DNA of 37,292 nt from Anaerosinus sp. Lineage in GTDB: Bacteria > Bacillota > Negativicutes > JARBTT01. The stretch covers positions 1 to 37,292 of the forward strand of contig JARBTT010000008.1 in assembly GCA_029240055.1 (NCBI GenBank), written 5' to 3'. A program made the translations under genes and the position numbers. Every line of letters begins with the position of its first letter. Within the stretch, counting starts at the first letter, position 1. Below the pieces are notes generated by a model, which saw only the letters and a program-made list of their open reading frames with translations, searched no databases and had not been told where the DNA came from. Of the stretch, positions 8,869 through 24,605 are shown piece by piece.

Positions 8869-8907
8869 AAAAAATCCAGCTGAATTCTAAGTTCAGCTGG
8901 ATTTTTT
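8869..8907. terminator. Terminator closing the exopolysaccharide operon
   Basis: AAAATCCAGCTGAA (from 8871) pairs with TTCAGCTGGATTTT (8892-8905) in a 15-bp stem with a 7-base loop. A-rich and T-rich flanks give a U tail on both strands. It lies about 50 bases after the last gene of the minus-strand operon (GH18 lipoprotein) and also separates it from the PPC-domain gene. The 8723-8868 gap otherwise holds the leader of that gene. Confidence 0.85.
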
Positions 8908-8957: not shown

Positions 8958-9992
8958 CTATATTATTTTATTGAGATTCATATTTCCACCAAAGCGCCAG
9001 AGGCTGATATGATTTACCCCTTGTTCTTTCGCAATCTTTATCCAATCATTTAAAGTTTTTATATCCGCATACCATACTTGATAGGCAACGCCATTTTCTT
9101 TATAATCAAAAATTACGCATTGGCTTTCTTCATCACGCTGCGTGTCAGCGTGATATTTCACGGCAAGATTTCTTGCTTCCACTTCCGTTACTAATCTTTT
9201 TTCTCCGTTGTCACCCCACACGCAACCGCCGGTTGAAAATGCTACTGATTTTTCACCTGGCAAACCTGCCATTCGTGTTATTGTTTTCTCAATAAAGGCC
9301 TTATTTGCTTTCGGCCCAGGGTCGCTATGCAATCCGTAAAGGTTATAAAGCATCACTACATACTCTGGTCCTTCGAAAAATTGAGCAGAAGAGAAAGGTG
9401 TACTCGGCTCTAGCACAATCCTTAGCTTTAAATCATTATCCAACGCTTTTACATAAAGTTTATTAGCAAATTTCAAAAAAGACTGACCAATGCTTTCATC
9501 TTTCCATATTTTTTCATAATCGATTTCAATGCCATCATAGCCGCCCTGTAAAGTTAGTGCAATGATTTCATCCACATGTTTTTCCATTGATACATCATCA
9601 GAAAATAGTCTGCGGAGAACTTCTATATCTTTTATTGTCGACGATCCGTCATTATTTTGCTTATCATTGACAATCGTAAGATAGGTTTCATATTTAGCTT
9701 TTTTCTTTTTTAATTCATTTCTTTTTTCGCTAAGATCTTGCGGGATAAAAACCTTGTCATTTTCATCAAAATATGCGCCAAAATAAGAAAGTTTATCAAG
9801 CTGCTCTCCTATTTTTTTTAAATCTTTTTCACCTGCACCGATATCCCAATAAACTAACCATCCCGCTCTTTTTGTGGGTTCTTTTGCGCCTGTATTGCCA
9901 GCAGATTGACTATTATAAGTACAGCCTAGCAATATAAGAAAAACAGATGCATATATAGCCACTTTGAATGCTTTATGAATTCTTCTAGACAT
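8958..9992 (-). CDS. GH18-type glycoside hydrolase lipoprotein
   Basis: 344 residues, start supported by AAGGAGGAA before the ATG. A lipoprotein signal (hydrophobic run, then LLGC with Cys24) anchors it to the membrane. The rest is a TIM-barrel of the GH18/chitinase type: GWLVYWDIG opens the barrel (residues 44-52), the catalytic DxxDxDxE motif reads DGIEIDYE (153-160, Glu160 the acid), and VWYADIKTLNDW and HISLWRFGG form the last strands. Last gene of the exopolysaccharide operon, about 100 bases after the preceding gene. In synthase-dependent systems such as PNAG, alginate or Pel, a periplasmic hydrolase trims polymer or clears jams; an equivalent role on a HexNAc-containing polymer is inferred. 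Confidence 0.82.
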   Translation of the reverse strand: MSRRIHKAFKVAIYASVFLILLGCTYNSQSAGNTGAKEPTKRAGWLVYWDIGAGEKDLKKIGEQLDKLSYFGAYFDENDKVFIPQDLSEKRNELKKKKAKYETYLTIVNDKQNNDGSSTIKDIEVLRRLFSDDVSMEKHVDEIIALTLQGGYDGIEIDYEKIWKDESIGQSFLKFANKLYVKALDNDLKLRIVLEPSTPFSSAQFFEGPEYVVMLYNLYGLHSDPGPKANKAFIEKTITRMAGLPGEKSVAFSTGGCVWGDNGEKRLVTEVEARNLAVKYHADTQRDEESQCVIFDYKENGVAYQVWYADIKTLNDWIKIAKEQGVNHISLWRFGGNMNLNKII

Positions 9993-10091: not shown

Positions 10092-11963
10092 TTATAACCT
10101 AGTGACAAACCAGTCTATCATTGCTTCCCACAATCGCTTCACTTTAAACTTTATGCCATCAAAGCCTTGTAAGCTGCTGTCGAATAAAATCTTTTCTTTT
10201 TCTACGCCGGTGTTTTCAGTAATCATTAGCTTTTCAAACACGCCGTCATATACATCATCCGCCAAGTTTCTTTGACTCCAGCCATAGCCGCCCCATGCCG
10301 TTTCCAGATAAACAGCCCCTGCTTTCATTTCTGATACTTGTAGATTTTCGACAGCCTCTTTGCCATCTACCGTGACACTAATAAAATTTTCTTTGAGCGA
10401 TACCGCTAGCCTACGGTCACCTTTAGTACTCACAGCAAGGTCGCCTATATATTCTTCTGCGCCTTCGTCTACTGTAGGAGCATCTTCCAAATTCTTATCT
10501 TTCAATCTTTCTGCGTAAATCTTTGCTTTTTCAACAGAAGTGGCATATTTCGTAAAGGTTTCTAATTCTCTCATTTCAGCCGCTTTCTTATCTTCGGGAA
10601 TTGATATACGCTCCTTACCATCATGATTATCTAAGTTTAATTTAAATAATTCTTTTTCAGCGCCGCCAGTTTTTTCCGTAACATATAAAACATTATTAAA
10701 AATGGATACGGATAAAAATCTGTTTAATGCTTCATCGGCACGAAGATATATCTTCTGCAAGCCAAGTTTATTTCCCTTTAATCTTACAGAAAGCTTCATG
10801 TCTTCAAAATCACTACTGTTCTTTAAACGCATTAAACCTTTGTCTTGTGGCAGAGACGTCAAAATCATCGTTTCCTCTTGAAACTCCAATGCCCCTTTCA
10901 GTGTTTCCCATGCTTTCTGTTTCTGTAAATCACCTTTGACAAATTCCAAGTCTTGGTTGATATCATATTTGATACGCATCAGCAAATGATTGGTATACCA
11001 ATATGCCTGTGGCTGCATCCTTGTTAAGTCATAAATAGTGCTGTTTCGCTGATTAAAAGAAAAACCTTCTCTATTGAAGTTCATTTTAAACAATTGTTTC
11101 ATCCAATATTCATTTACCGCACTTACTTTATCATTATTGCCAAAACTTCCTGTATTCGAGTGCATCAATATGTACATTCCTGGAACAAACCCAAGCGACT
11201 GCGTATAAATATCTCGCACAGCTTCGTAATCATAACTGATACGTTCTTTCATTTTGGGATAGCTCTCTTTTGGAATACCATATTCATCTCGAATATAATC
11301 CATCAAATAGTGATTGTATTTGCGTCCTAAATATGGCGCAACGCTAGAGTGTACTAGCGGTTCCAATTCTCCCAAATAATTGTTATACCGATCAAATACA
11401 TTAATAAAGGCAAGCCTATATCCATTCGTACCCATTTCCCAGAAAGTTGTTTTTTCAAGCTCACGTAGTTCATCTGGCATTAAAAATTTAGTATCTTTCT
11501 TTTCAAACTTTTCTGGGTAAGTCAACATTGTTCCTTTAAAGTTCAATTCTTCTAAGATTTTTTGCGAAAAAATTGCAGTATCTCTCCTACCGTCTTCAAA
11601 CATCAGAAATAATGATTTTTCCGGCAGGTCTTTCCCTGATTGATAATAGTCTAAAATATCTTGTTGCGTGATTGTTACATAGCCCAAATCTTTGAGCGCT
11701 TGCAAATGATCATGTAAACGTTCCACACCAATTAAATTTTGATTGCCGATTCTTTCTACCCCAAAATAAGCAAGGGCAACAAAGCCTTTATCCCCTGAAA
11801 TTTTTGTAGTCTGCTTTGTATAAGGTTCATAGGTTTTTAGCGTAAATAATGCGGTTATGCAGATAGCACTCACTGCAAGGAGGATCATAATTTGCGCAAC
11901 TACACGTATCTTTTTTTTACGATCTTTTTGATTCGTATATTTTTCATTTCCCATTGTCATCAT
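10092..11963 (-). CDS. Membrane-anchored polysaccharide deacetylase-like protein, probably inactive, with C-terminal sandwich domain
   Basis: 623 residues from the ATG at 11963, one base after the synthase stop (TAAG-ATG), implying translational coupling; the longer reading from 12011 would overlap the synthase by 47 bases. One membrane anchor spans residues about 21-42. Residues 58-330 follow the NodB/PgaB deacetylase order, but the metal motif is altered: FEDG (122-125) replaces FDDG, and the HxxxH motif expected after the EMG strand is absent (EMGTNGYRLAF). The region about 390-600 alternates beta strands (LGLQKIYLRADE, FLSVSIFNNVLYVTE, AVYLETAWGGYG) around a charged helical insert, resembling a LamG/DUF1080-like sugar-binding sandwich. 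A periplasmic polymer-binding or chaperone subunit seems more likely than an active deacetylase. Confidence 0.72.
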   Translation of the reverse strand: MMTMGNEKYTNQKDRKKKIRVVAQIMILLAVSAICITALFTLKTYEPYTKQTTKISGDKGFVALAYFGVERIGNQNLIGVERLHDHLQALKDLGYVTITQQDILDYYQSGKDLPEKSLFLMFEDGRRDTAIFSQKILEELNFKGTMLTYPEKFEKKDTKFLMPDELRELEKTTFWEMGTNGYRLAFINVFDRYNNYLGELEPLVHSSVAPYLGRKYNHYLMDYIRDEYGIPKESYPKMKERISYDYEAVRDIYTQSLGFVPGMYILMHSNTGSFGNNDKVSAVNEYWMKQLFKMNFNREGFSFNQRNSTIYDLTRMQPQAYWYTNHLLMRIKYDINQDLEFVKGDLQKQKAWETLKGALEFQEETMILTSLPQDKGLMRLKNSSDFEDMKLSVRLKGNKLGLQKIYLRADEALNRFLSVSIFNNVLYVTEKTGGAEKELFKLNLDNHDGKERISIPEDKKAAEMRELETFTKYATSVEKAKIYAERLKDKNLEDAPTVDEGAEEYIGDLAVSTKGDRRLAVSLKENFISVTVDGKEAVENLQVSEMKAGAVYLETAWGGYGWSQRNLADDVYDGVFEKLMITENTGVEKEKILFDSSLQGFDGIKFKVKRLWEAMIDWFVTRL

Positions 11964-11964
11964 C

Positions 11965-13806
11965 TTATACCCGCTGCTGCTTTCCACGATTCTTTTTTTC
12001 CAGCTCCGCAATATCTGCTGGAGTCATGCGCGTTCCCCAGGTCGTTTTCCAAAAAGTAACCCAAGCAATCGGCATTTGCCATAAAAGTACGGCTTCATAA
12101 TATAAGCAAAACCATAACCCATAAATCCAGGTAGAACTTCTCCTAATAAATAATTGCGTCATACTCATCAGCAAGGCCATTAAGCAAATACCGATGATAA
12201 AGGTAAATGGAAACACTCTGTGGATAATCGGAATATAAACCAGATTATAAATGACAATAATCGGTGCCAAGATTGGCACAAACACACCCATATAAAACGA
12301 CAAAGCCATAAACGGTTCTTTTCTCCACATAAAACCAGCGGCAATCAATGATTCTCGAAGCCATGATCGTTTCCAGCGCATCTGTTGTTTCAAAAAAACA
12401 TCATAGCTGTTAGGTACAATCGTATTACATATTGCAGTATCTTGATAAACGGTACGATTTTTTCTTAATATGAAATTAGTCATGCTTCGATCATCGCCAA
12501 AGGTCGCTTTCTGCCTAAAAAATTTTTGGTTTAGCCACGCATCCATATATTTAATGAGTAAATCTTTTCTATAACACGAGAGAGGCCCCGATAAACATGT
12601 CACTGCATCAAAATAACTTTCTGCAGCTTTCATAATACGGAAGGCGATAAAATATCTTACCGCTTGCATCTTGGTAAGTGTGTTTGTATAGGTATTGGCC
12701 ACGTCGGTTCTACCAGAAACACCGCCCATTTTTGCATCTTTAAAGGGCTGGACGATATTACGAATAGCAAAAGGGTCTAAGAAGCTATCTGAATCAACAA
12801 ATACAATCAATTCATGCTGCGCCATGACAGCACCTCTTGCCAAGGCCTCCCGTTTCCCTGCATTTTTTTTCTGGCGAACATATTGCAGTCTACTTTCCAT
12901 ATCATAACGTTTTTCTTTGACTTTTAGTTCTTCAATAATTTCTTCAATTTTTTCAATAGATCGGTCGTCAGAGCAATCATCTACGACAATCACTTCTAAT
13001 TTATGGATTGGATAATCCTGATTAATACAGCCTAAAATGGTTTTTTGTATCCATTCTTCCTCATTGAAACAAGGAATGATAATTGTTACCCCCGGTGTAA
13101 AATCTTTATCGATTGGCACAGGACGGTAAAACGTACCGAATAGATACCTAGTGAGCAAAAAGGTAGCTGCAATAATACTGTACATATACAAGATTTTATT
13201 AAATTTAAAATAAAGTACACTCTCTGTCCTCATCAGCAGAATACAGGCAGTAATAACGAATAAACAAAAGGAGGCTACCGTCAGCATATACCAATTTTTC
13301 TTCTTTGCTCTATACTGCGCTAGTGATTGTAAAAATTCTACTGCACACAGAGTTCTCCCATCTGGATTTTTAATAATGCGGATATATTTAGCTGCAATAT
13401 CGACGTTCATTTCATAGCCTTCTGGCATTGTGCCGGGTACTATACTAAATTTCAACCGAATCTTAGCAGCCGTTTGGCTCAAATCCTCAGCAACATCTGG
13501 TAAAACTTCAAGCAACATCCCTGTAGTCGATATATCAACACCTTTAGCCTGACATGTTACTTTTTTATCAGCAGAAGCATAGTTAAGTGTGACAGCATAC
13601 TCAACCAAATAACGTCTACCCATTTCTTCATTTTTTATAAGCTTGGAGATATCATTTATATCCTCATTGCCCTTTAATCGCCGTCGGTCTAAATTCGTAC
13701 GCACGCCTTCTTTGTCAGGCACTTTAGAAACTAGCCGACGGTCAGGTTTGACGACGAGTAAAATATCCTCTTCTGTTTTTATCTCCAGTTGAAATAATTT
13801 ATTCAT
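11965..13806 (-). CDS. PilZ-GT2 processive polysaccharide synthase (hyaluronan/chitin-synthase type)
   Basis: 613 residues from the ATG at 13806 (MNKLFQLEIK; GGTGGGG 9 bases upstream). Residues about 60-160 are a PilZ-like domain (c-di-GMP receptor family) with DISTTG (91-96) matching DxSxxG; the RxxxR partner is degenerate (RRYLV), so binding is uncertain. Two membrane segments (about 172-191 and 205-224) precede a processive GT2 domain: IIIPCFNEEEW, VVDDCSDD (277-281), VDSD (337-340), FGDDRSMTNF (436-445) and the QQMRWKRSW product-binding motif (474-482). FGDDRxxTN and QQxRW are typical of HasA, NodC and chitin synthases. Three or four C-terminal membrane segments form the translocation channel. 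It polymerises and exports an amino-sugar/uronate-type chain across the inner membrane; the product is inferred from the neighbours. Confidence 0.9.
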   Translation of the reverse strand: MNKLFQLEIKTEEDILLVVKPDRRLVSKVPDKEGVRTNLDRRRLKGNEDINDISKLIKNEEMGRRYLVEYAVTLNYASADKKVTCQAKGVDISTTGMLLEVLPDVAEDLSQTAAKIRLKFSIVPGTMPEGYEMNVDIAAKYIRIIKNPDGRTLCAVEFLQSLAQYRAKKKNWYMLTVASFCLFVITACILLMRTESVLYFKFNKILYMYSIIAATFLLTRYLFGTFYRPVPIDKDFTPGVTIIIPCFNEEEWIQKTILGCINQDYPIHKLEVIVVDDCSDDRSIEKIEEIIEELKVKEKRYDMESRLQYVRQKKNAGKREALARGAVMAQHELIVFVDSDSFLDPFAIRNIVQPFKDAKMGGVSGRTDVANTYTNTLTKMQAVRYFIAFRIMKAAESYFDAVTCLSGPLSCYRKDLLIKYMDAWLNQKFFRQKATFGDDRSMTNFILRKNRTVYQDTAICNTIVPNSYDVFLKQQMRWKRSWLRESLIAAGFMWRKEPFMALSFYMGVFVPILAPIIVIYNLVYIPIIHRVFPFTFIIGICLMALLMSMTQLFIRRSSTWIYGLWFCLYYEAVLLWQMPIAWVTFWKTTWGTRMTPADIAELEKKNRGKQQRV

Positions 13807-13899
13807 CCTACACTTCCCCACCTTTTTTTTAGGCTGCTTGCTTAAACAGCATATAATCAACCGATCTCGTCATTTCCGTGTCGATTATTTATACTGCTG

Positions 13900-16545
13900 C
13901 TACTTTTGCACATTATCATGACTACTTAATTTCAGTGCTTCTTTGCGATTGCTTTGCCAGTAGCCATCTATTAAGTAATCTGATAATCTACCAACTCTAA
14001 ATTTGGATGGATCAGAATCCACTTTTGCTTCATTTGCAGTCAACAATATATCTAAAGCCACTGGAGTATAGATACAACTATCTCCCATATGCATCGTCAA
14101 AATCGCACCTTTTTTTACTTCACCTTGTTTTGTATATACCCCGTCTTTGATTGTTTCTACAAGCTCTGGAACACTTTTAGCTTTATAATCATATGTGCTA
14201 CACGAACCTGAGATAATATATTCATAGCCAGTTTCAAACAAGGTTTCAACTCCCATCTTGCTGATTGCTAACGTTGGTGGACGGAAGAATCTCGTCAAAG
14301 AAGGCTTACCGTTAACAGTTACGTCCCCAGTAACATCTCGCAATTTTTGATATGCTGTTGCAAGGTCTTTACTATATTCTTGCTTATCCTGTGTTTTCAC
14401 TTCTTTGCCTGTTTTTGAATCGCGAACCACCATCGGCTTATGACCATCAGAATGACTGCCGATATCATTTCCTTGCATAGCAATGGAGCGAAGTAAATTG
14501 GGATTATTGAGCACATTATGCGTAAGAACAAAGAATGTTCCTTCAACATGATGCTTGCGCAGAACATACAGTATTTTATTGATTGCCGCATCCGTTCCCC
14601 AGTCATCAAATGTCAGGAAAATAACATTGTCTTCAGTGTGTACCAACCCAGTATTATCAAGACGACGGGCATCCATTTTTGAAAAACCGAGCATGCGGTC
14701 TTCGTAAGTAACATCCCCATTCCCAATATAACGTTTTGCTGCTTCGGTTAGAAAATTATGTTGATCGGTCATTAGCATCGGTTCATCATTTCTTAAACGT
14801 TCTGGAACATTTTGCTTGTCGGCTGGATATTGATACGTAAACTTCGTATTATTAAGAATCTCGCCTATCGGCTTAATCTTATACTGTGAGTCATTCGCCA
14901 AATTGTTTGCGGGATTGTCATAGAATGTTACATAAGCAATATTATCCACCTTGCGTTCTTTGATAAGTTCCAGCAAATCAACAATCAAGTGTTCATTCGT
15001 ATAATAATCCATTCTAAAATGGACAATCTGTCCACGAGCTAACGAAAATGTAGACTTGCCGAAAATCTCCGACATCACTTGAACCGCAGAAGTATACTCT
15101 TTATGTTTGCTTTGTACAACATTAATAGATTGACCAATTAATTTGCAGTCGAGATTTGAAACAGCTTTTTTCATAGCCTCCGTTACCGTACCCCATGGCT
15201 GTTTTATCAAATTCGTGGTCACACCAAACTGTTCTTGTAATTTAGTGCGACACCGCATAATATCGTTTTGGATTTCCTCCGTTGTTTCCCCATCTTTCGG
15301 TCTTATGCCAATCCCAATTTCATGCCCACTTTCAATAATTCGCCTTATATTTTGAGGATTCTTTTGCATTTCTACTTCCATCACGAAGAAAGTACCTTTA
15401 ATACCGAGATCATTCAATTTTCCGAGTACATCATTGACTACTGCTTCTTTGGCTACTCCTCCAAAAGTATAAGCAATTGCCGGCTCTGTTGTTGAAATAA
15501 CCTTAATTTCATTTGCATTATGATCCATATTTTCTGCTGCATATGCTGTCCGGCAAGTAAATAAAGCTGTTATCTGCTCTTTTATGAGATAAGCCATAGC
15601 TTTTGCGCTATTTTGTGAAAAAGTTGTTGCTATCGGCTTTGTTAGTGGATTGCTCGCTGAAAAATTCTCCACATAAGTCGTCGTATACTTTGCTCTTTTA
15701 AGCGCAATTAAAAAGTTTTCCACTGCATTAACAAGTTCTTTGTCTTCCATTTCTACCTGCTCAGGCAGCTCTTTTAGGCCTGGTTGTTTATCTATTGCTG
15801 GCTTTAAGTCTATTGTACCCTGCTCGTTTACAATTGGCTCATTATTGGTTTTTAACTTAATAGAAACAATGCTACCGGCTCTAAGTTTGCCGACAAAATC
15901 GTCCGCTGCCTTACCAGAGTTTACTTTTTTCACATTAAAATAAACATCACTTTTTACAACACTCTTAAAGCCACAAGCTCTGGCCACTTGTAGTAACGCT
16001 TCTGTATAGTTTGTATCATTGCATTTTAAAAGATTGGGGTCTTGGTCAGTGGTCACTTTGATAATTTTTTGCGCACGGCAAAAATCTTTAATCAACCTTT
16101 CTGTAGGGAGCTTTTCCATTTTTCCTAGCCCTGACAATGTGTAATTTTCTATTCTTTGTCCTGCTTTTTTAATATTTACGACAGTTTGTGGATCTTCGGC
16201 TGTCTGCATTCCATCCACAAAAAAAGTTGCTTTAACATCATATTTTTTCAATAAATCCAAAATTTGCTCTACTTTCGTGTGATCGGTCAGACCATCAAAA
16301 GTCAAAGCAATCCTACGCTCACCACTAGCACTATGCGTTATGACTCCTACCTGCTCCTGGCTATTTTTCATCTGCGCCATAGCTTGCGCAATTTCCTCAT
16401 CAGCCTGATAGGAATTTTCTACATCAGTAATATTACGTGAGTAACCACTTGTCTGCATCGTAAAGAAGCCTTTGAAGAAAAATACCCCGATAAGACAAAA
16501 ACCGATCAGTATCACCAGTGATGATACCATTTTCCTTTTCTTCAC
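13900..16545 (-). CDS. Membrane-anchored triple-NodB polysaccharide deacetylase
   Basis: 881 residues from the GTG at 16545, 5 bases after the SD AAGAGGTGA, which swallows the earlier GTG at 16554. One N-terminal membrane anchor (residues about 8-28). Three NodB-type domains in tandem. Domain 1 (about 78-300) has LTFDG with one Asp and no His motif. Domain 2 (about 355-545) has YTFGGV, both Asp lost, though SGHEIGIG and KQPWG keep the fold. Domain 3 (about 640-860) is complete: LTFDDWG (644-650), HSDGH (698-702), RFFRPP and TMHMGD. So one catalytic and two degenerate copies, probably acting on the nascent polymer in the periplasm by removing N-acetyl groups, and possibly binding it. Sixteen bases after the dehydrogenase gene. 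Confidence 0.87.
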   Translation of the reverse strand: MKKRKMVSSLVILIGFCLIGVFFFKGFFTMQTSGYSRNITDVENSYQADEEIAQAMAQMKNSQEQVGVITHSASGERRIALTFDGLTDHTKVEQILDLLKKYDVKATFFVDGMQTAEDPQTVVNIKKAGQRIENYTLSGLGKMEKLPTERLIKDFCRAQKIIKVTTDQDPNLLKCNDTNYTEALLQVARACGFKSVVKSDVYFNVKKVNSGKAADDFVGKLRAGSIVSIKLKTNNEPIVNEQGTIDLKPAIDKQPGLKELPEQVEMEDKELVNAVENFLIALKRAKYTTTYVENFSASNPLTKPIATTFSQNSAKAMAYLIKEQITALFTCRTAYAAENMDHNANEIKVISTTEPAIAYTFGGVAKEAVVNDVLGKLNDLGIKGTFFVMEVEMQKNPQNIRRIIESGHEIGIGIRPKDGETTEEIQNDIMRCRTKLQEQFGVTTNLIKQPWGTVTEAMKKAVSNLDCKLIGQSINVVQSKHKEYTSAVQVMSEIFGKSTFSLARGQIVHFRMDYYTNEHLIVDLLELIKERKVDNIAYVTFYDNPANNLANDSQYKIKPIGEILNNTKFTYQYPADKQNVPERLRNDEPMLMTDQHNFLTEAAKRYIGNGDVTYEDRMLGFSKMDARRLDNTGLVHTEDNVIFLTFDDWGTDAAINKILYVLRKHHVEGTFFVLTHNVLNNPNLLRSIAMQGNDIGSHSDGHKPMVVRDSKTGKEVKTQDKQEYSKDLATAYQKLRDVTGDVTVNGKPSLTRFFRPPTLAISKMGVETLFETGYEYIISGSCSTYDYKAKSVPELVETIKDGVYTKQGEVKKGAILTMHMGDSCIYTPVALDILLTANEAKVDSDPSKFRVGRLSDYLIDGYWQSNRKEALKLSSHDNVQK

Positions 16546-16561
16546 GCATATCACCTCTTAT

Positions 16562-17890
16562 TTAAAGACTCCAATAGGAGTAATTTTTCTTTTCTATGTC
16601 TTTTGGATCAAATATATTTTTGATATCAACAAAGACATGTTTTGTTTGCTCTCTTTGCGGTTTGAACATGCTTTCCAAATCCGCCAATCGCAACTCTCTA
16701 AATTGTTGGTGTGCTACTAAAAACACCAAACAATCAGCATCTCTGACATCTTTAAGATCAACCAATTCCATATTGAATTCTTTTTTAAATTCTGTTTCAT
16801 CAGCAACCGGATCTACCACCTTGACCTCTATTCCATACGTAGCAAAGTGCTTCACAACAGCTGCCGCTTTTGAATTCCGCATATCAGGACAATCTTCTTT
16901 AAAAGTGATTCCCATAACATAAATAGTAGATTGTTTGATATTTTTATTTGCTTCAATCATTTTTTTTATCACATTATCAGCAGTGAAAACCACCATATTA
17001 TCATTTACTTTTCTGCCAGCGGCAATAATCTGCGAATGATATCCTAACATCTCCGCTTGATAAATAAAGTAATATGGATCGACACCGATACAATGTCCGC
17101 CTACCAATCCCGGTGAAAATCCCAAAGCATTCCATTTGGTATTCATGGCATCGATAACATCCTTGGTGTTGATTCCCATTCGATCAAAAGCCATTGCCAA
17201 TTCATTCATAAAGGCAATATTAATATCTCTTTGAGCATTTTCAGCCAGTTTAGCTGCTTCCGCTACTTTAATACTAGAGGCCTTATAAACACCAGCATGA
17301 ATAATCAACTCGTAGATCGCAGCAACGTTTTCCACCGTTTCTTCATCCATCCCCGAAACAATTTTTCGTATGTTTTCAAGTTTGTGCACTTTATCACCTG
17401 GATTAATTCTCTCCGGTGAATACCCAACTTTGAAATCTATTCCATATACCATACCTGATTCTTTTTCTAAAATAGGTACACAAACATCTTCTGTAACCCC
17501 CGGATACACTGTGGACTCAAAAATAATAATACTGCCTTTCGATAAATTTTGTCCTATTATTTTACTGGCATTGATAACAGGTGCCAAATTCGGTGTTTTA
17601 TCTCCATTGACAGGCGTTGGGACAGCAACAATGATGACTTTTGCTTCTTTCAACCTTGTAGCATCAGTGGTAAATTCCAATGTAGTATTTTTGATTTTTT
17701 CATCACCAATTTCATTGGTAGGATCCATTCCCTGCTTGTAAACATTGATTTTTTCTTGGTTAATATCAAACCCCAGCGTTTTGACTTTACCAGCAAATGC
17801 AACAGCAATAGGTAATCCCACATAACCAAGGCCTACAACTGCTAAAAAATCTATTTTTGTCCGAATTCGTTGTAAAATTTCCATCTGCAT
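16562..17890 (-). CDS. UDP-N-acetylhexosamine 6-dehydrogenase (TviB/WbpO type)
   Basis: 442 residues, ATG at 17890 with GGGAG 7 bases upstream. NAD-dependent nucleotide-sugar dehydrogenase making a UDP-HexNAc uronic acid in the cytoplasm. Rossmann motif GLGYVG (20-25), PTPVNGDKTPNL (91-102), GYSPERINPGDK (156-167, typical of TviB/WbpO rather than UDP-glucose dehydrogenase), the catalytic Cys267 in GGHCIGVDPYYF, and GITFKEDCPDMRNSK. Length is normal for the family. It supplies the sugar donor for the synthase, as AlgD does for alginate, so the polymer should contain an N-acetylhexosaminuronic acid; whether Glc, Gal or Man configured cannot be told. Confidence 0.9.
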   Translation of the reverse strand: MQMEILQRIRTKIDFLAVVGLGYVGLPIAVAFAGKVKTLGFDINQEKINVYKQGMDPTNEIGDEKIKNTTLEFTTDATRLKEAKVIIVAVPTPVNGDKTPNLAPVINASKIIGQNLSKGSIIIFESTVYPGVTEDVCVPILEKESGMVYGIDFKVGYSPERINPGDKVHKLENIRKIVSGMDEETVENVAAIYELIIHAGVYKASSIKVAEAAKLAENAQRDINIAFMNELAMAFDRMGINTKDVIDAMNTKWNALGFSPGLVGGHCIGVDPYYFIYQAEMLGYHSQIIAAGRKVNDNMVVFTADNVIKKMIEANKNIKQSTIYVMGITFKEDCPDMRNSKAAAVVKHFATYGIEVKVVDPVADETEFKKEFNMELVDLKDVRDADCLVFLVAHQQFRELRLADLESMFKPQREQTKHVFVDIKNIFDPKDIEKKNYSYWSL

Positions 17891-17913: not shown

Positions 17914-19419
17914 CTAAAAATAACGAGTCACATAACTCCACCAAGTTTCGCCTTTTTCTCCAGTAATTTTATCTTCTAAGTTGTAATGTTCTATACCTCC
18001 GACAAGGTTTTCGGCAAAGGTATAGTTTACGCCTACTCCGTAACCTTTAAATCCTTGCATGGAATTCCCCATACCATTCATACCATGTGAAATATAAGTA
18101 CCACTTGGTTGATTGTAATATTTTGCAAAGATATCATATGTTCTTGGTCTATATGGCTTCAAATCACCATAGTTAATACTAAGCACATAGCCATTGTTGT
18201 CCCCTCTGCTATCTTTCTGACTAGAGTGCAAAACCATAGCTCCTACACCAAAATTAGAAAAATTATAAATTCCGCTAAAAGTACCGATTGTATTTTTACT
18301 TTTACTGCTGTCATCAGCCTCATAATGATAGACTCCAGCCTCCAAATTATAATCCAAATCATTGTACCGCGCAGTTGCTATAAATGTTTTTTTCGTGTAA
18401 TCAGTTTTCCCATAACTCAACGTGTATTTCAGCGCTTCACCAAAATCATATCTAGCCCCTTTAAAGGTACTATCATAAATATTTCCCTCTGCCATAAGAT
18501 AGCCAAATGAGCCTACTTTCAGCATTGATTCGCCTATTTTGTGGGTTACATATAAATTTAAAAGTTTGAATTCATTATCATAATTTACTAAGTCTTGTTT
18601 ACCTTCCAACATCCCATAGGCATGCCAGTCCTGATCAAACTCTGCATCAACGCCAAGACGAACACGAATTCCCGAGGAATCCTGTTGCAATTGCTTAGCT
18701 CCGCTATTCGATGCGTAATGAAGACGAATTTCACCGTCCATATTTATTTTATTATCCGCATGATTTCTACGGTCGCTTACATTCATCAATTCATCGATAA
18801 GACCATGATATGTTTCTGGGGCAATATCACTTGTAGGAACGCTTTCCTTTTTAGCAAGATCGACATTATTATCCACGACAATTATTGGTTTTTGCTCAAT
18901 ATCCGCATTATTTCTAAGAAGTATTCCTTTTGACTGGCTGTAGTCATTGCTCCCCTGAAGCATGGTTTTGTTATCTGCATTCATTATGATTTTTGTTGTA
19001 AGCTTTGCTATTTCATAGGAAAATTCGATTTTTGCTTTTTCTACATCTAAATTTTCATCACCAACTATTTTTGTTGTAATCTGTGCCATTTTATAGGCAA
19101 ATTCATCTCTTTCATCGTTAGGCAGAAGTGGCATTACCTTTGTTGTAGCCTCAGCAACAGCATAAGAATATTCCTTTTGAAAATTTTCAATATTTCCGGT
19201 CGTAACAGATACTACCTTCGCTGTAAATTGTGCCATTTCATAGGCAAACTCAGTTTTGAAATTGTCTGCATTTCCCTTTATTGTAGCAATAGACTTAGAA
19301 TAAGACTTTTGCTCACTATTGAGCTTGTTTGCAGCATATACTACGTTTTTCAATGGTCTATCTATAACGATCCCAATAACGATTGCCATTAAAAGCAATA
19401 TACTAAAAACCTTTTTCAC
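17914..19419 (-). CDS. Outer-membrane beta-barrel porin with four N-terminal helical repeats
   Basis: 501 residues from the GTG at 19419 (MKKVFSILLL); the GTG at 19431 lies inside the SD AGGGGGGGTGAA. Signal peptide to about residue 30 (VVYAA). Then four imperfect repeats spaced 23-26 residues: FAYEMAQFTAKVV (58-70), YSYAVAEATTKVM (84-96), FAYKMAQITTKIV (107-119), FSYEIAKLTTKII (133-145), probably helical. From about 220 to the end are amphipathic beta strands ending in aromatic Phe (YVTRYF), the signature of an outer-membrane barrel. No SLH domain is visible, unlike many Negativicutes porins. As the first gene of the operon it is the obvious outer-membrane exit for the polymer; periplasmic helical repeat plus barrel recalls BcsC, PgaA and AlgK/AlgE. 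That analogy is inference. Confidence 0.82.
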   Translation of the reverse strand: MKKVFSILLLMAIVIGIVIDRPLKNVVYAANKLNSEQKSYSKSIATIKGNADNFKTEFAYEMAQFTAKVVSVTTGNIENFQKEYSYAVAEATTKVMPLLPNDERDEFAYKMAQITTKIVGDENLDVEKAKIEFSYEIAKLTTKIIMNADNKTMLQGSNDYSQSKGILLRNNADIEQKPIIVVDNNVDLAKKESVPTSDIAPETYHGLIDELMNVSDRRNHADNKINMDGEIRLHYASNSGAKQLQQDSSGIRVRLGVDAEFDQDWHAYGMLEGKQDLVNYDNEFKLLNLYVTHKIGESMLKVGSFGYLMAEGNIYDSTFKGARYDFGEALKYTLSYGKTDYTKKTFIATARYNDLDYNLEAGVYHYEADDSSKSKNTIGTFSGIYNFSNFGVGAMVLHSSQKDSRGDNNGYVLSINYGDLKPYRPRTYDIFAKYYNQPSGTYISHGMNGMGNSMQGFKGYGVGVNYTFAENLVGGIEHYNLEDKITGEKGETWWSYVTRYF

Positions 19420-19439
19420 TAAAAATTTCACCCCCCCTG

Positions 19440-19530: not shown

Positions 19531-19589
19531 AAAAAAAATTACCAAGTTGCATTTACAATATACATAGTACTTAAAATGCAACCTGGCAA
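19531..19589 (-). terminator. Riboswitch-controlled intrinsic terminator of the exopolysaccharide operon
   Basis: On the minus-strand RNA, TTGCCAGGTTGCATTT (19589-19574) pairs over all 16 bases (two G-U) with AAATGCAACTTGGTAA (19554-19539), followed by eight U (19538-19531). It lies about 110 bases before the porin start, inside the leader. Its 5' arm is the 3' end of the c-di-GMP aptamer, so aptamer and terminator are mutually exclusive. Confidence 0.85.
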
Positions 19590-19667
19590 TCATAGACTTC
19601 AATCATCCTTAGACCCATAGCTTTGCGCCCCTTATTTTCAAAAGGTTTGCTAGTTATATTCATTTTT
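19573..19667 (-). promoter_or_regulatory. Cyclic di-GMP-I (GEMM) riboswitch aptamer
   Basis: Read on the minus strand from 19667: P1 5' strand AAAATG; GCAAACC (19650-19644); a GAAA tetraloop; GGCGCAAAGC (19629-19620); GGGTCTAAG; a variable hairpin; and TATGATTGCCAGGTTGC. P1 closes with CATTTT (19578-19573). This is the order and sequence of the GEMM-I consensus (GCAAACC, GAAA tetraloop, GACGCAAAGC, GGGUCUAA, GCCAGGUUGC), with one departure, GGCGC for GACGC. The 3' strand of the ligand-bound fold is the 5' arm of the terminator at 19531-19589, so c-di-GMP should block termination (an ON switch). Ligand specificity is known for the family; the direction of switching is inferred. Confidence 0.9.
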
Positions 19668-19748: not shown

Positions 19749-19779
19749 ATTATAGCATTTAAAATATTAATCACGTTAA
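19749..19779 (-). promoter_or_regulatory. Candidate promoter of the exopolysaccharide operon
   Basis: TATAAT on the minus strand (19754-19749) lies about 80 bases upstream of the aptamer, at a sensible distance for a start near 19742. The best -35 is only TTAACG with a 19-base spacer, so the boxes are weak. Another sigma factor or activator may be needed. Confidence 0.35.
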
Positions 19780-20128: not shown

Positions 20129-20159
20129 TAAAAAAAAGTCAGGACACTTGTCCTGACTT
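20129..20159 (-). terminator. Terminator of the Sia operon
   Basis: AAGTCAGGACA (20136-20146) pairs with TGTCCTGACTT (20149-20159), and the minus strand continues into TTTTTTTTAG. It lies 11 bases after the stop of the GGDEF/HD-GYP gene. Confidence 0.88.
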
Positions 20160-20169
20160 AAACAGTTTT

Positions 20170-21774
20170 TTAATCTGCAATAAACTCCAGAAATTTTTTG
20201 GTAAGCGTGGGATCAAAATGGGTTCCACTTTCACTGGAAATTTCCATTAGTGCTTCTTGTTTTCCTAGCGCCGACCGATAGGGACGATCATGGGTTAAAA
20301 CATCATACATATCAATCAACGAAAATATTCGCACTGTAAGTGGTATCTGCTCTTCGTGTAATCCATGAGGATATCCTGTCCCGTCCCACCATTCATGATG
20401 TAAAAGAATAGCCTCTGCCAAAGGAGTTTTTCCAATAGAGTTAGCTAAGCGATACCCTACATCACTATGATTTTTCACAATATCCCATTCCTCATCACTC
20501 AAAACGCCTCTGCGTCCCCAGATATCACTATTAATGGCTACCTTACCAATATCGTGTAGCCTTGCCAAATGGAGTAAAGTCTCTATTTGTAACTGCTCCA
20601 ACGGCACCCCTAAAAAAGCGATAAATTTAGACGTCAACTGCTCTACTCGAGTGCCATGACCATCATTTTCATAACATTGACTATATAATAACCCTTCTAG
20701 GCTGGAAATAAAACCTTGATGCAAGGCAGCTCTTTTAGCTAACTTATCGCTATACATCATACTCTCCGCTTCACTAAACATTTCTGGAAAGCGAAAAGTC
20801 CCTCTCGTTTTCGTAGTCCGACCAATAGCCGCACTAACCTTGATTGGATTGTCTTTTGTTTGAGCACAAGCAGTTTGAATACACTCACAAATTCCTTGGC
20901 AAATCGCAGCGCTCGTCTGTGGCAATACGATCAAAAACTCATCCCCGCCCCAGCGAGCAATAATATCAGTTGGTCGGCAACATTTTTTCATGATATTTGC
21001 AATAGCAATTAGCAGCGTATCCCCCTGCTGATGTCCGAAAACATCATTTACCAGTTTCAATCCATTCATATCAATAATAACAATACTGATTGGCATCGCT
21101 TGGGTTCCTTCAACTTCTGGTAAGACTGTCTCGACATAAGCACGATTATATACCCCTGTCATTTTATCATGATAACTAAGATAATGGATTTCTTTCTCTG
21201 CTAATAATTTTTCTGTAATGTCCGTCAAAATCATCATAATTAAAGGCTCATCACCAAACTCAGATTCAAGCAATTTGCATTCAACCTGAATATCTCTGTC
21301 CTTGATTCGGAACCTCACTGGAAATTGCTGAAGTAACGACTCTGCAAGAGCATTGCTTTCAGCAAAAACCTGCGACAAAATTTTCTCTAATTTAATTTTA
21401 TCTGTATCATTTTCTTGCGTTAAAAGAGAGGTAATTGATAAACCAGCTATCTTCTGACCAAATATCCGAACACATTCCTGGCTATATTGGCGGCCAACTT
21501 TCAAATCCCTAGTAAAAGTTAAAAAGCCTTGATTGGCATTATCAAGTAAGTTCTGCATCTCGGCTTGCTGCCTCTGCAGAACTTTACCCTGACGATCACT
21601 TATATAAAAAGCTTTTTTCGTAATGCGCAACAACTTCTGATATTCTTTAGTCAACCTTGAATACGACGCTAATATTTCCTGTTCATTAGCCGTGGCATGA
21701 GCAATCATAGTCTGTGCCTCTTCTAAAGTCCGATCTTCACCATCAAACAAATGCTTTTCCATTTCTTTTTTCAT
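20170..21774 (-). CDS. PAS-GGDEF-HD-GYP c-di-GMP synthase/hydrolase in the SiaD position
   Basis: 534 residues from the ATG at 21774 (GAGG 5 bases upstream). Residues 1-75 are a coiled-coil stalk ending LTKEYQKLLRITKK...YISDRQGKVLQR, the segment type through which SiaC contacts SiaD in Pseudomonas. Residues about 76-190 are a PAS-like domain. A diguanylate cyclase domain (200-350) has an intact WGGDEF (275-280) and an allosteric RxxD site (RPTD, 267-270). A phosphodiesterase HD-GYP domain (365-530) has HDIGK (407-411) and HHEWWDGTGYP (459-469) intact. Pseudomonas SiaD has only the stalk and GGDEF, so the fused HD-GYP domain is unusual. It may make c-di-GMP when SiaC is bound and degrade it otherwise; the net activity cannot be read from sequence. 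Confidence 0.88.
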   Translation of the reverse strand: MKKEMEKHLFDGEDRTLEEAQTMIAHATANEQEILASYSRLTKEYQKLLRITKKAFYISDRQGKVLQRQQAEMQNLLDNANQGFLTFTRDLKVGRQYSQECVRIFGQKIAGLSITSLLTQENDTDKIKLEKILSQVFAESNALAESLLQQFPVRFRIKDRDIQVECKLLESEFGDEPLIMMILTDITEKLLAEKEIHYLSYHDKMTGVYNRAYVETVLPEVEGTQAMPISIVIIDMNGLKLVNDVFGHQQGDTLLIAIANIMKKCCRPTDIIARWGGDEFLIVLPQTSAAICQGICECIQTACAQTKDNPIKVSAAIGRTTKTRGTFRFPEMFSEAESMMYSDKLAKRAALHQGFISSLEGLLYSQCYENDGHGTRVEQLTSKFIAFLGVPLEQLQIETLLHLARLHDIGKVAINSDIWGRRGVLSDEEWDIVKNHSDVGYRLANSIGKTPLAEAILLHHEWWDGTGYPHGLHEEQIPLTVRIFSLIDMYDVLTHDRPYRSALGKQEALMEISSESGTHFDPTLTKKFLEFIAD

Positions 21775-21810
21775 CAAAACCTCATCTCACCTTCATTCGC
21801 ACATCCAATG

Positions 21811-23640
21811 CTAACGAATAGAAAAACCTAATAAAGTAATATCATCACGCTGTGATTCATCTGCCATATAGTTTCGCAACACTGTCTCAAAATGTGCTGC
21901 TTGACAAGCTACCGCTTCTTGTTGCGCGAGAATTTCTGTAGTAAAATTTTTCTTACCAAAGGAATAATTTTTCTTACCACCATTTTGGTCAATATAACCA
22001 TCTGTTACTAAGTAAAACTGATCGCCAGCCTCAATATCCCAACTCTGACTGGTAAAGGTCAAAGTCTCAGGCGATGCTTTATAGCCGATACTCTTATGAT
22101 CACCTGGTATCGTATGGATTTCCTGATCTCGTCTAACATAAAGTGAAAGTTTAGCCCCAGCAAAACTCAGTCGTGAATGACCTTCAATGGCGCAAATAGC
22201 AATATCTAGGCCATCATCACGAAAAGATTGCTGATGATTACGATGCAAAATTTGCTTCATCTGCAAATTTAATTCTGATAAAATCTGAGCCGGTTCAGTA
22301 TGATTTTGCTCAACAATATGTTTTAAAGCTGAATTCACAGCCATCGTCATAAATGCACCGGGAACACCATGACCAGTACAATCCACAAGAGCAACCAGAC
22401 TTTTTTCCTCACTCACACGCCTCACCCAAAAGAAATCACCACCGACAATATCGCGCGGTCGCCAAAGTACAAAATAAAAACCAAGTACATCCTCAAGTTC
22501 CTCGGAAGTCGGTAATATAGATTCCTGAAGTAGTCTAGCATATTCAATGCTATCCATGATTTTCTCATTACTCTCAGCCAATTCACTCGTCCGCGCTTTT
22601 ACCTGCTGTTCCATTTTTTGTGTAAGTAAAAGGGCACGTTTGAGTGGATTCGCAATTCTACGCGATACCAAATAAAAAACTAGAGTAATCATGAGCACAG
22701 CAATAAGACTGGCAATCGCTGTATTCATTTTAATTGTTTTTAAAACTGCGATACTTTCACTGCGCTTGATTTGGAGTACCACTTTCCAATCGGTAGACTC
22801 AGTTCTCTTATACGCCAAGTCAACGGTTTCTCCAGCTGCGTTTACATATTCCAGTATTTGTGGCTGCGTCTGCTGGCTGTTCGTATCAGCAATAATTTGA
22901 TCAGCAACTGCCGCTGGCATAAAGTCGTTTAAATTTTTACCGTTTTGTTCTACGCTATCCGCTAAATGAATCTTCCCGTTGCCATCCACGAGCCACAAGG
23001 CACTGCTTTCACCGAACTTATACTCTGTAAATTCTTTGGCAATGTCCGCAAGACTCAAACCAACGCCCGCTATGCCACTGGGATGTTTTAAATCACCGAT
23101 TAACGCATTCAAAAAAACATAGGTATTGTCCCTGCCAATATTATAATCAATATTCAAGCTTACCGCTTTATCAGATTTGAGTGTTTCATAAAACCAGTAA
23201 TCATCCGCATTATCTTCGGACATTCTCTGCAGTAGCCTACCTTCTTCAGCCCAGTAATTTCCTGTTACTACACTGACAATAAAGGAATTAACATAGTCGT
23301 AACTTTGGGCCATATCAGTAAGCTTATCCTTTGCATACTTTCCCAATTGTTCATTTTTTTCACCTGAAAGCACCCATTCGTTAACCGCAGAATCCCGCGC
23401 CAGAAGAAGAGACGTCTCACGAGCGCGGGCAATTCTCCCGTCAATTTTTGCTGTTGCCGATTCAATAATATAAACAAGATCCCGTGATTTAAGCTTATCT
23501 ACAACTGCATTACGCGTAATAAAATAACTTATGCTACCTGTAAAAACAACAGCCAAAACAATGATGATACAAGCAAAGCTCACTACCTTCATCGTACTGC
23601 CATCATACATAATATTTTGATCACTCGTTACTTTGCTCAT
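21811..23640 (-). CDS. siaA: SiaA-like membrane sensor PP2C phosphatase
   Basis: 609 residues from the ATG at 23640 (GGGAG 9 bases upstream), chosen over the upstream Met codons, which lack an SD. Two membrane segments (about 19-42 and 306-325) enclose an extracytoplasmic dCache-like sensor domain (about 45-300, with DYWFYETLKSDKAV and TYVFLNALIGD). A helical linker follows (ARTSELAESNEKIMDSIEYA). The cytoplasmic PP2C/SpoIIE phosphatase domain (about 385-605) has GGDFFW (400-405), DCTGHGVPGAF (420-430), DGYIDQNGG and RDDITLLGF, so the metal-binding Asp residues are in place. In Pseudomonas SiaA dephosphorylates SiaC and thereby activates the diguanylate cyclase SiaD. The gene follows siaC by 19 bases. 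Confidence 0.88.
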   Translation of the reverse strand: MSKVTSDQNIMYDGSTMKVVSFACIIIVLAVVFTGSISYFITRNAVVDKLKSRDLVYIIESATAKIDGRIARARETSLLLARDSAVNEWVLSGEKNEQLGKYAKDKLTDMAQSYDYVNSFIVSVVTGNYWAEEGRLLQRMSEDNADDYWFYETLKSDKAVSLNIDYNIGRDNTYVFLNALIGDLKHPSGIAGVGLSLADIAKEFTEYKFGESSALWLVDGNGKIHLADSVEQNGKNLNDFMPAAVADQIIADTNSQQTQPQILEYVNAAGETVDLAYKRTESTDWKVVLQIKRSESIAVLKTIKMNTAIASLIAVLMITLVFYLVSRRIANPLKRALLLTQKMEQQVKARTSELAESNEKIMDSIEYARLLQESILPTSEELEDVLGFYFVLWRPRDIVGGDFFWVRRVSEEKSLVALVDCTGHGVPGAFMTMAVNSALKHIVEQNHTEPAQILSELNLQMKQILHRNHQQSFRDDGLDIAICAIEGHSRLSFAGAKLSLYVRRDQEIHTIPGDHKSIGYKASPETLTFTSQSWDIEAGDQFYLVTDGYIDQNGGKKNYSFGKKNFTTEILAQQEAVACQAAHFETVLRNYMADESQRDDITLLGFSIR

Positions 23641-23659
23641 CCCCAAGTGCTCCCGCTCT

Positions 23660-24052
23660 TTATTCATCATCATCTAAGACAATAAGCTCAAACGGTAACA
23701 TAAGATCTTCCTTAAACTCTTCTGCGCACTCCAATGCGGCCTCATCTTCATGATTATAATACCATTCGATTGCAACTTTTCGCCCTTCCTGATAAGCATT
23801 TTCCATTTTTTCTAGCAGCATCATAATGCACTTAGAACTACTCGTATTTATGTACGGCATATGAAAATATATTTCTAAAACAGTTTCTTTATCTATCTCT
23901 GTCAAATACTGATCCAACCAATTAAAAATTGGTTCATAAAACTTAAAGGCATTTTCCGGATAAGATTGTCCTTCAATCCTCAGCTTATTATTCACAATAT
24001 CAAACTGAATGGTTGGAGTTGACTTTGTTTGCTCTATGCATAAATTTTCCAT
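23660..24052 (-). CDS. siaC: SiaC (DUF1987), phosphorylatable partner of the cyclase
   Basis: 130 residues from the ATG at 24052 (AGGAGG 7 bases upstream); the reading back to 24157 overlaps siaB by nearly 100 bases. DUF1987 landmarks: MENLCIEQTKSTPTIQFD, SYPENAFKFYEPIFNWL (30-46), and YINTSSSK (67-74), which contains the Thr (Thr70, near Thr68 of Pseudomonas SiaC) phosphorylated by SiaB. Acidic C-terminus. In P. aeruginosa unphosphorylated SiaC binds the stalk of SiaD and switches on c-di-GMP synthesis. Same gene context here. Confidence 0.88.
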   Translation of the reverse strand: MENLCIEQTKSTPTIQFDIVNNKLRIEGQSYPENAFKFYEPIFNWLDQYLTEIDKETVLEIYFHMPYINTSSSKCIMMLLEKMENAYQEGRKVAIEWYYNHEDEAALECAEEFKEDLMLPFELIVLDDDE

Positions 24053-24062
24053 GTCTTTCCTC

Positions 24063-24605
24063 CTACACTTGAACCTTAAGAGTAAAAAATGATAATTGCT
24101 CATCAATATCCTGTATAGAATACTGGAGCTTTCCACTAGCACGCCGAGCCATATCAATAAGCCCTAGGCCCGCGCCGGTACTTTCTGGATCAAGAGTTTT
24201 CTTTATTTGTTCCTTATATAGCTTTTTTAGCCCGATCTTATCCAAAGATGTAATCACAGCTAACTTATCTTTAAGCAATTCAACATCAGTAGTAGTCAAC
24301 ATATTTCCTGAAGACACAAAGTACCCTTCCGCGTCTTTGCCAATTGCAACAATCCCCGAATTGGCGATTTTTTCACCATTGGCAAATTCACTTTGACTGC
24401 TGGCATAATTTTTCACATTTTGAGTCTGCTCAATAAAAACAGCAAATACATCATGTGTTTTATGCTGCGTGGATTCTGTCTCCATATACTTTTTTACCGC
24501 ATCCCCAAGTTCCTCAATAATTTCTTGGGTAAAACGACCAGAGAAAGTGATTAGCACACCATTTTTTTGTAAGTGCCTTTGCAAGTCCAGCAAATTTAAA
24601 TTCAT
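24063..24605 (-). CDS. siaB: SiaB (DUF6272), SiaC kinase
   Basis: 180 residues, start with AGGAGG upstream. A GHKL-type small kinase of the DUF6272/SiaB family: FIEQTQNVKNYA (an N-box, about residues 57-68) and GAGLGLIDMARRAS (about 144-157, the G-box). SiaB phosphorylates SiaC, blocking its activation of the cyclase, and opposes SiaA. First gene of the operon siaB-siaC-siaA-GGDEF/HD-GYP; the stop lies 10 bases before siaC. Confidence 0.88.
   Translation of the reverse strand: MNLNLLDLQRHLQKNGVLITFSGRFTQEIIEELGDAVKKYMETESTQHKTHDVFAVFIEQTQNVKNYASSQSEFANGEKIANSGIVAIGKDAEGYFVSSGNMLTTTDVELLKDKLAVITSLDKIGLKKLYKEQIKKTLDPESTGAGLGLIDMARRASGKLQYSIQDIDEQLSFFTLKVQV

Follow-up and report, generated by a model that had tools for sequence, protein, structure and literature searches.

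A class-I cyclic-dinucleotide riboswitch and its overlapping terminator as a probable ON switch for an exopolysaccharide operon in Anaerosinus sp.

The leader of a six-gene exopolysaccharide operon in Anaerosinus sp. carries a class-I cyclic-dinucleotide riboswitch (RF01051) that probably acts as a transcriptional ON switch, with c-di-GMP as its most likely ligand. The operon lies in the window, by which we mean the whole stretch of 37,292 nucleotides analysed here, on one contig of a 2.86-Mb genome that is 84% complete. What the analysis shows are the sequences themselves, covariation in each of the two folds, gene synteny and folding energies; the ligand, the direction in vivo, the identity of the polymer and the link to a neighboring Sia-type module are inferred. 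The elements of the leader, all on the minus strand, are as follows.

19749..19757, minus strand: candidate extended -10 element TGCTATAAT, some 90 nt upstream of the aptamer (read from the sequence)
19574..19661, minus strand: c-di-GMP-I (GEMM-I) riboswitch aptamer with P2 and P3 (RF01051 match and pairing across 17 orthologous leaders)
19651, minus strand: equivalent of Vc2 G20 and pilM A14, the selectivity base, an A in the window (cmscan alignment, pilM numbering)
19578, minus strand: equivalent of Vc2 C92 and pilM C75, the Watson-Crick partner of the ligand, within the 5' arm of the terminator (cmscan alignment; PMC9262584)
19537..19591, minus strand: intrinsic terminator stem-loop whose 5' arm is the 3' strand of the aptamer (18 bp, covariation, folding energies)
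19531..19538, minus strand: U8 tract of the terminator, its first two U also paired in the stem (sequence)

The first-pass annotation had assigned the leader to the GEMM-I family, and the Rfam search that it named returned RF01051 at 19661-19574 on the minus strand with 66.6 bits and an E value of 4.4e-11. The match spans model positions 1-87, the full length, exceeds the gathering score of 35 bits and is the only Rfam family over its cut-off within the window. Every sequence motif cited in that annotation is present. The GAAA tetraloop, its receptor, the conserved GCAAA and CGCAAAGC segments and the equivalents of A47 and C92 are all found in the window copy, as judged from the cmscan alignment and the alignment of leaders. 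Base numbering was anchored on pilM, in which J1/2 spans A9-A14 and ends immediately before the C15-G40 pair of P2 (PMC6274999). One detail was not upheld. P1 had been drawn as AAAATG (19666-19661) paired with CATTTT (19578-19573), which occupies C19578, the base expected to pair with the ligand. With C19578 taken by the ligand, P1 is left with at most five A-U pairs and is hence weak. By eye, its pairing has no visible conservation in the alignments of orthologues, and Cd1 has likewise been described without P1. For the candidate extended -10 element, we saw no strong -35, and the element is absent from the scan list.

The 3' strand of the aptamer is also the 5' arm of a hairpin with a U8 tail, as the first-pass annotation had proposed; we compute 18 pairs rather than 16, with a stem energy of -24.5 kcal/mol. 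The 5' arm runs from 19591 to 19574, the 19-nt loop from 19573 to 19555 and the 3' arm from 19554 to 19537. A generic terminator scan missed this hairpin because it takes loops of 3-8 nt only. When the downstream sequence was shuffled, none of 300 shuffles reached 60% of the terminator score with at least 8 nt of aptamer overlap. The hairpin ends about 110 nt upstream of the conserved porin start codon, GTG 19419, in agreement with the distance given earlier. Aptamer and terminator share 18 nt in the window leader and are mutually exclusive. In the predicted unliganded fold, the terminator captures C19578. The minimum free energy of the full-length leader is -36.2 kcal/mol with the terminator, versus about -19 with the aptamer enforced, energies that take no account of ligand or of tertiary contacts. 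The predicted fold changes as the transcript grows: transcripts that end at 19550 or earlier in transcription lack the terminator, while from 19545 the terminator stem wins.

The two folds are both conserved. We compared 17 Negativicutes leaders, from Pelosinus, Anaerospora, Lucifera, Propionispora and others; the set comprises the leaders whose aptamer match lies immediately before the porin gene. The 5' arm of the terminator overlaps the 3' strand of the aptamer by 11-21 nt in all 17. Across them, 96.0% of aptamer pair cells are formed, with 24 cells changed on both sides, and 96.2% of terminator pair cells are formed, with five covarying pairs. Slid controls paired in 24-52% of cells, against 96% in both real structures. 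That one strand has stayed complementary to two separate partners is strong evidence for a switch. The conserved overlap and covariation in 17/17 leaders support the ON switch that the first-pass annotation had put forward. Some class-I switches, such as Cd1, do the opposite (PMC9262584), and ligand binding could in principle promote termination here as well. In Cd1, however, aptamer and terminator can coexist, whereas those of the window share 18 nt and exclude each other. No separate antiterminator was seen in the window leader by terminator and fold analysis, and the overlap is kept in every leader compared. We therefore consider an OFF switch very improbable.

In the proposed ON mechanism, the aptamer 3' strand, including C19578, would pair downstream in the absence of ligand and form the 18-bp terminator, and RNA polymerase would stop at U8, some 110 nt short of the porin gene. 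The interval for binding would be roughly 25-30 nt of transcription, from completion of the aptamer to the 3' arm of the terminator. If ligand is bound in time, the shared strand would stay in the aptamer and the terminator could not form. Read-through would then allow all six proteins of the operon to be made, from the porin to the GH18-like protein.

Two characterized riboswitches resemble this arrangement. The pilM riboswitch of Geobacter metallireducens shares the class-I fold, an A at the selectivity position, ON behavior and a terminator that pairs with the 3' strand of the aptamer and sequesters the ligand-binding C, C75 (PMC9262584). The same paper reports a binding interval of 25 nt, close to the 25-30 nt estimated here. 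It differs in that it binds cGAMP, has a stable P1 and other lower P2 pairs, and controls pilus genes. Bc2 of Bacillus thuringiensis is also a Firmicute class-I riboswitch with an A at the predicted contact, and reads through an intrinsic terminator on c-di-GMP (PMC4933901). Its target is a collagen adhesin rather than a polysaccharide operon.

Because the base at 19651 is an A, we considered 3',3'-cGAMP as the natural ligand of the window copy, alone or together with c-di-GMP, within an ON switch of GEMM-Ib type. The A at the Vc2-20 position is the variant that selects cGAMP in GEMM-Ib riboswitches of Geobacter, and an A20G change in one of these moves selectivity from cGAMP to c-di-GMP (PMC6456294). 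However, A20 is common in the class. Exact-pattern searches of 251 Negativicutes genomes gave 308 G20 sites (the sum of per-genome counts), 10 with U or C, and 60 with A20, of which 54 have A and 6 have G at Rfam position 34. A is thus found at about 16% of comparable class sites; G is usual, and Rfam accepts the A match. Bc2 responds to c-di-GMP even though A11 is its predicted ligand-contacting base (PMC4933901). The lower P2 of the window is G-C/C-G, in contrast to C15-G40 and a G-U pair in pilM, and orthologous leaders carry G, U or C at position 20. All 14 GGDEF domains found in the 84%-complete genome have the canonical Asp at the selectivity position. Geobacter is known to have a hybrid cyclase to match its riboswitch; in this genome neither a hybrid GGDEF nor a SMODS cyclase was found, and at 84% completeness a cGAMP cyclase could be missed. 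In an A20-rich relative, none of the GGDEF domains that could be read is a Ser/Thr variant. We find cGAMP unlikely. Since A20 is ordinary here, Bc2 responds to c-di-GMP, the GGDEF domains are canonical and no SMODS cyclase was found in the incomplete genome, c-di-GMP is retained as the most likely ligand. The combination of A20 with G at Rfam position 34 was also considered as a mark of a cGAMP subclass and dropped: 24 of 30 readable G34 sites carry G20.

The window copy is the odd one among its orthologues in three respects, having A20, a G at Rfam position 34 and a mismatched U-U pair within P2, and its ligand binding may therefore be weak. It also has the lowest score among the intact riboswitches of its genome, 66.6 bits. 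The same features would fit a decaying or unresponsive copy that serves mainly as a constitutive attenuator. The other conserved core positions, the C92 equivalent, the tetraloop and the receptor are intact, though, and the terminator arms still match; we think decay quite doubtful and keep to the ON switch. Elsewhere in the genome, two of the other riboswitches (L001, L002, L004) precede genes for methyl-accepting chemotaxis proteins (L090, L088), and one further copy precedes a GGDEF gene (L002). The overlapping-terminator form is seen in L001 only, so polarity may differ between riboswitch targets. An identical A20 riboswitch sequence lies near two contig ends (L088, G000:C237; L089, G000:C53), and is probably a repeat or an assembly break.

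The base at the Vc2-20 position varies at this operon. Among operon-linked leaders, ten have G there, two have A, four have U and two have C (including one locus beyond the 17). Six of the ten U/C20 copies in the 251 genomes are located at this polysaccharide operon, an enrichment with a Fisher p of about 1e-6 that is inflated by shared ancestry. Those loci are L252, L254, L255, L257, L259 and L250, with the riboswitch about 1.5 kb into the locus, or near 0.3 kb in L254. Published mutants disagree on what such a change costs: position-20-type mutants have a small effect in Cd1 (PMC9262584), the Bc2 A11T mutant loses its response (PMC4933901), and a cost of about 30,000-fold for Vc2 is cited in PMC4744006. 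The cost of changing the ligand-reading base is a clean experimental question.

Downstream of the leader, the exopolysaccharide operon claimed in the first-pass annotation is borne out, although some of the matches used to name the polymer genes fall below curated cut-offs. Its genes, all on the minus strand, are listed in order of transcription, with the closing hairpin.

17914..19431, minus strand: porin with a helical N-terminus and a 16-stranded OmpM-like beta-barrel (predicted structure); likely start GTG 19419
16562..17890, minus strand: UDP-sugar 6-dehydrogenase, closest to TviB (UDP-GlcNAc C6 dehydrogenase), below the TviB equivalog cut-off
13900..16554, minus strand: polysaccharide deacetylase in which the NodB-type domain is repeated (three stretches matching PF01522, E 2.9e-58)
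11965..13860, minus strand: GT2 polysaccharide synthase, NodC/PgaC-like (PF00535; TIGR04242 NodC 1e-50 and TIGR03937 PgaC 5.5e-32, both below equivalog cut-offs)
10092..12011, minus strand: PgaB-like protein (weakly matching the deacetylase domain of PgaB, and PDB 3vus by profile at 1.8e-6)
8958..9992, minus strand: GH18-like protein, whose gene ends the conserved operon (PF00704 just under its cut-off, E 4.3e-6)
8869..8907, minus strand: strong terminator-like hairpin at the end of the six-gene operon, which can be read on the plus strand as well (sequence scan)

The porin has no match in Pfam or NCBIfam, and an alignment of it found no sequence match among PDB sequences. Its open reading frame is called from 19431, upstream of the conserved start codon. 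The structure model has a mean pLDDT of 63.9, with the barrel region mostly at 70-90, and its best PDB match is Veillonella OmpM1 (8bym, E 2.5e-18). The 16-strand OmpM-like barrel predicted in this model supports the label of porin given earlier. The operon resembles pgaABCD, which directs poly-N-acetylglucosamine, in its processive GT2 synthase, PgaB-like protein, deacetylation and 16-strand outer-membrane barrel. However, the porin is OmpM-like rather than PgaA-like, there is no PgaD match, and the operon also encodes a sugar dehydrogenase, a deacetylase of several domains and a GH18 protein. None of its proteins scores above the equivalog cut-off for PgaC or PgaB.

The order of the six genes is kept in at least 15 Negativicutes, with enzymes roughly 59-84% identical and porin orthologues 49-63% identical. 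Relatives in named genomes were found with an alignment of the PgaB-like protein, and they put the operon within the Negativicutes; the porin alone as query gave none. The riboswitch precedes the porin in most syntenic loci, including Pelosinus fermentans JBW45, P. propionicus, Lucifera, Propionispora and Anaerospora, as detected by RF01051 or by a model built in this analysis. One Pelosinus-type locus (L085) keeps the operon, and no riboswitch was detected there. Sporomusa differs in having a longer porin gene, with open frames of about 1,100 aa, and a riboswitch at a greater distance upstream. PgaB-like relatives (L091-L170) also occur in single-membrane Firmicutes such as Clostridium, Butyrivibrio and Faecalibacterium. 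Near most of these no class-I riboswitch was detected, Acetobacterium L114 being an exception. The same assembly as the window holds a second porin and sugar-dehydrogenase pair with its own U20 riboswitch (L171, G000:C187:1-3695). Its porin is 80% and its dehydrogenase 92% identical to those of Pelosinus propionicus, indicating either a second operon or a contaminated bin.

Upstream of the leader lies a candidate source of c-di-GMP.

24063..24605, minus strand: SiaB-like DUF6272 protein (PF19788, 5.4e-43)
23660..24157, minus strand: SiaC phosphoprotein (PF09345, 1.6e-43)
21811..23673, minus strand: SiaA-like dCache-SpoIIE phosphatase (domain matches)
20170..21777, minus strand: protein with GGDEF and HD-GYP domains, occupying the place of SiaD (RWGGDEF motif canonical, guanine-recognition residue Asp)
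20136..20159, minus strand: terminator after the Sia-type unit (terminator scan)

As in SiaABCD of Pseudomonas aeruginosa (PMC7278518), SiaA, SiaB and SiaC and a GGDEF protein form one adjacent unit, here at 20170-24605. The window cyclase differs in that it also carries HD-GYP and adjoins a riboswitch-controlled operon, and it falls below the SiaD equivalog cut-off. Because a terminator follows the unit, the leader with the riboswitch is probably transcribed separately. The adjacent cyclase module possibly supplies part of the c-di-GMP, a link suggested by its position. Among the compared loci, the module adjoins the operon in two only, the window and Anaerospora L080, and so the link between Sia and the operon is not general.

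Riboswitches of the c-di-GMP-I class whose terminator overlaps the aptamer are already known as a kind. A literature search of partial coverage gave no description of a riboswitch paired with this operon, and the conserved use of the switch on this gene set across Negativicutes seems undescribed. It would tie c-di-GMP signalling, through an RNA switch, to a defined and conserved matrix-polysaccharide operon in Firmicutes with an outer membrane, the Negativicutes. We also raise the idea, improbable as we judge it, that orthologous riboswitches before this operon have changed ligand or affinity between species. If true, some lineages, including that of the window, may sense cGAMP or a different dinucleotide rather than c-di-GMP. 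The variation among G, A, U and C extends to type strains that can be cultured (Pelosinus propionicus, Anaerospora hongkongensis) and provides a ready test case for how far class-I riboswitches tolerate or repurpose their ligand-reading base.
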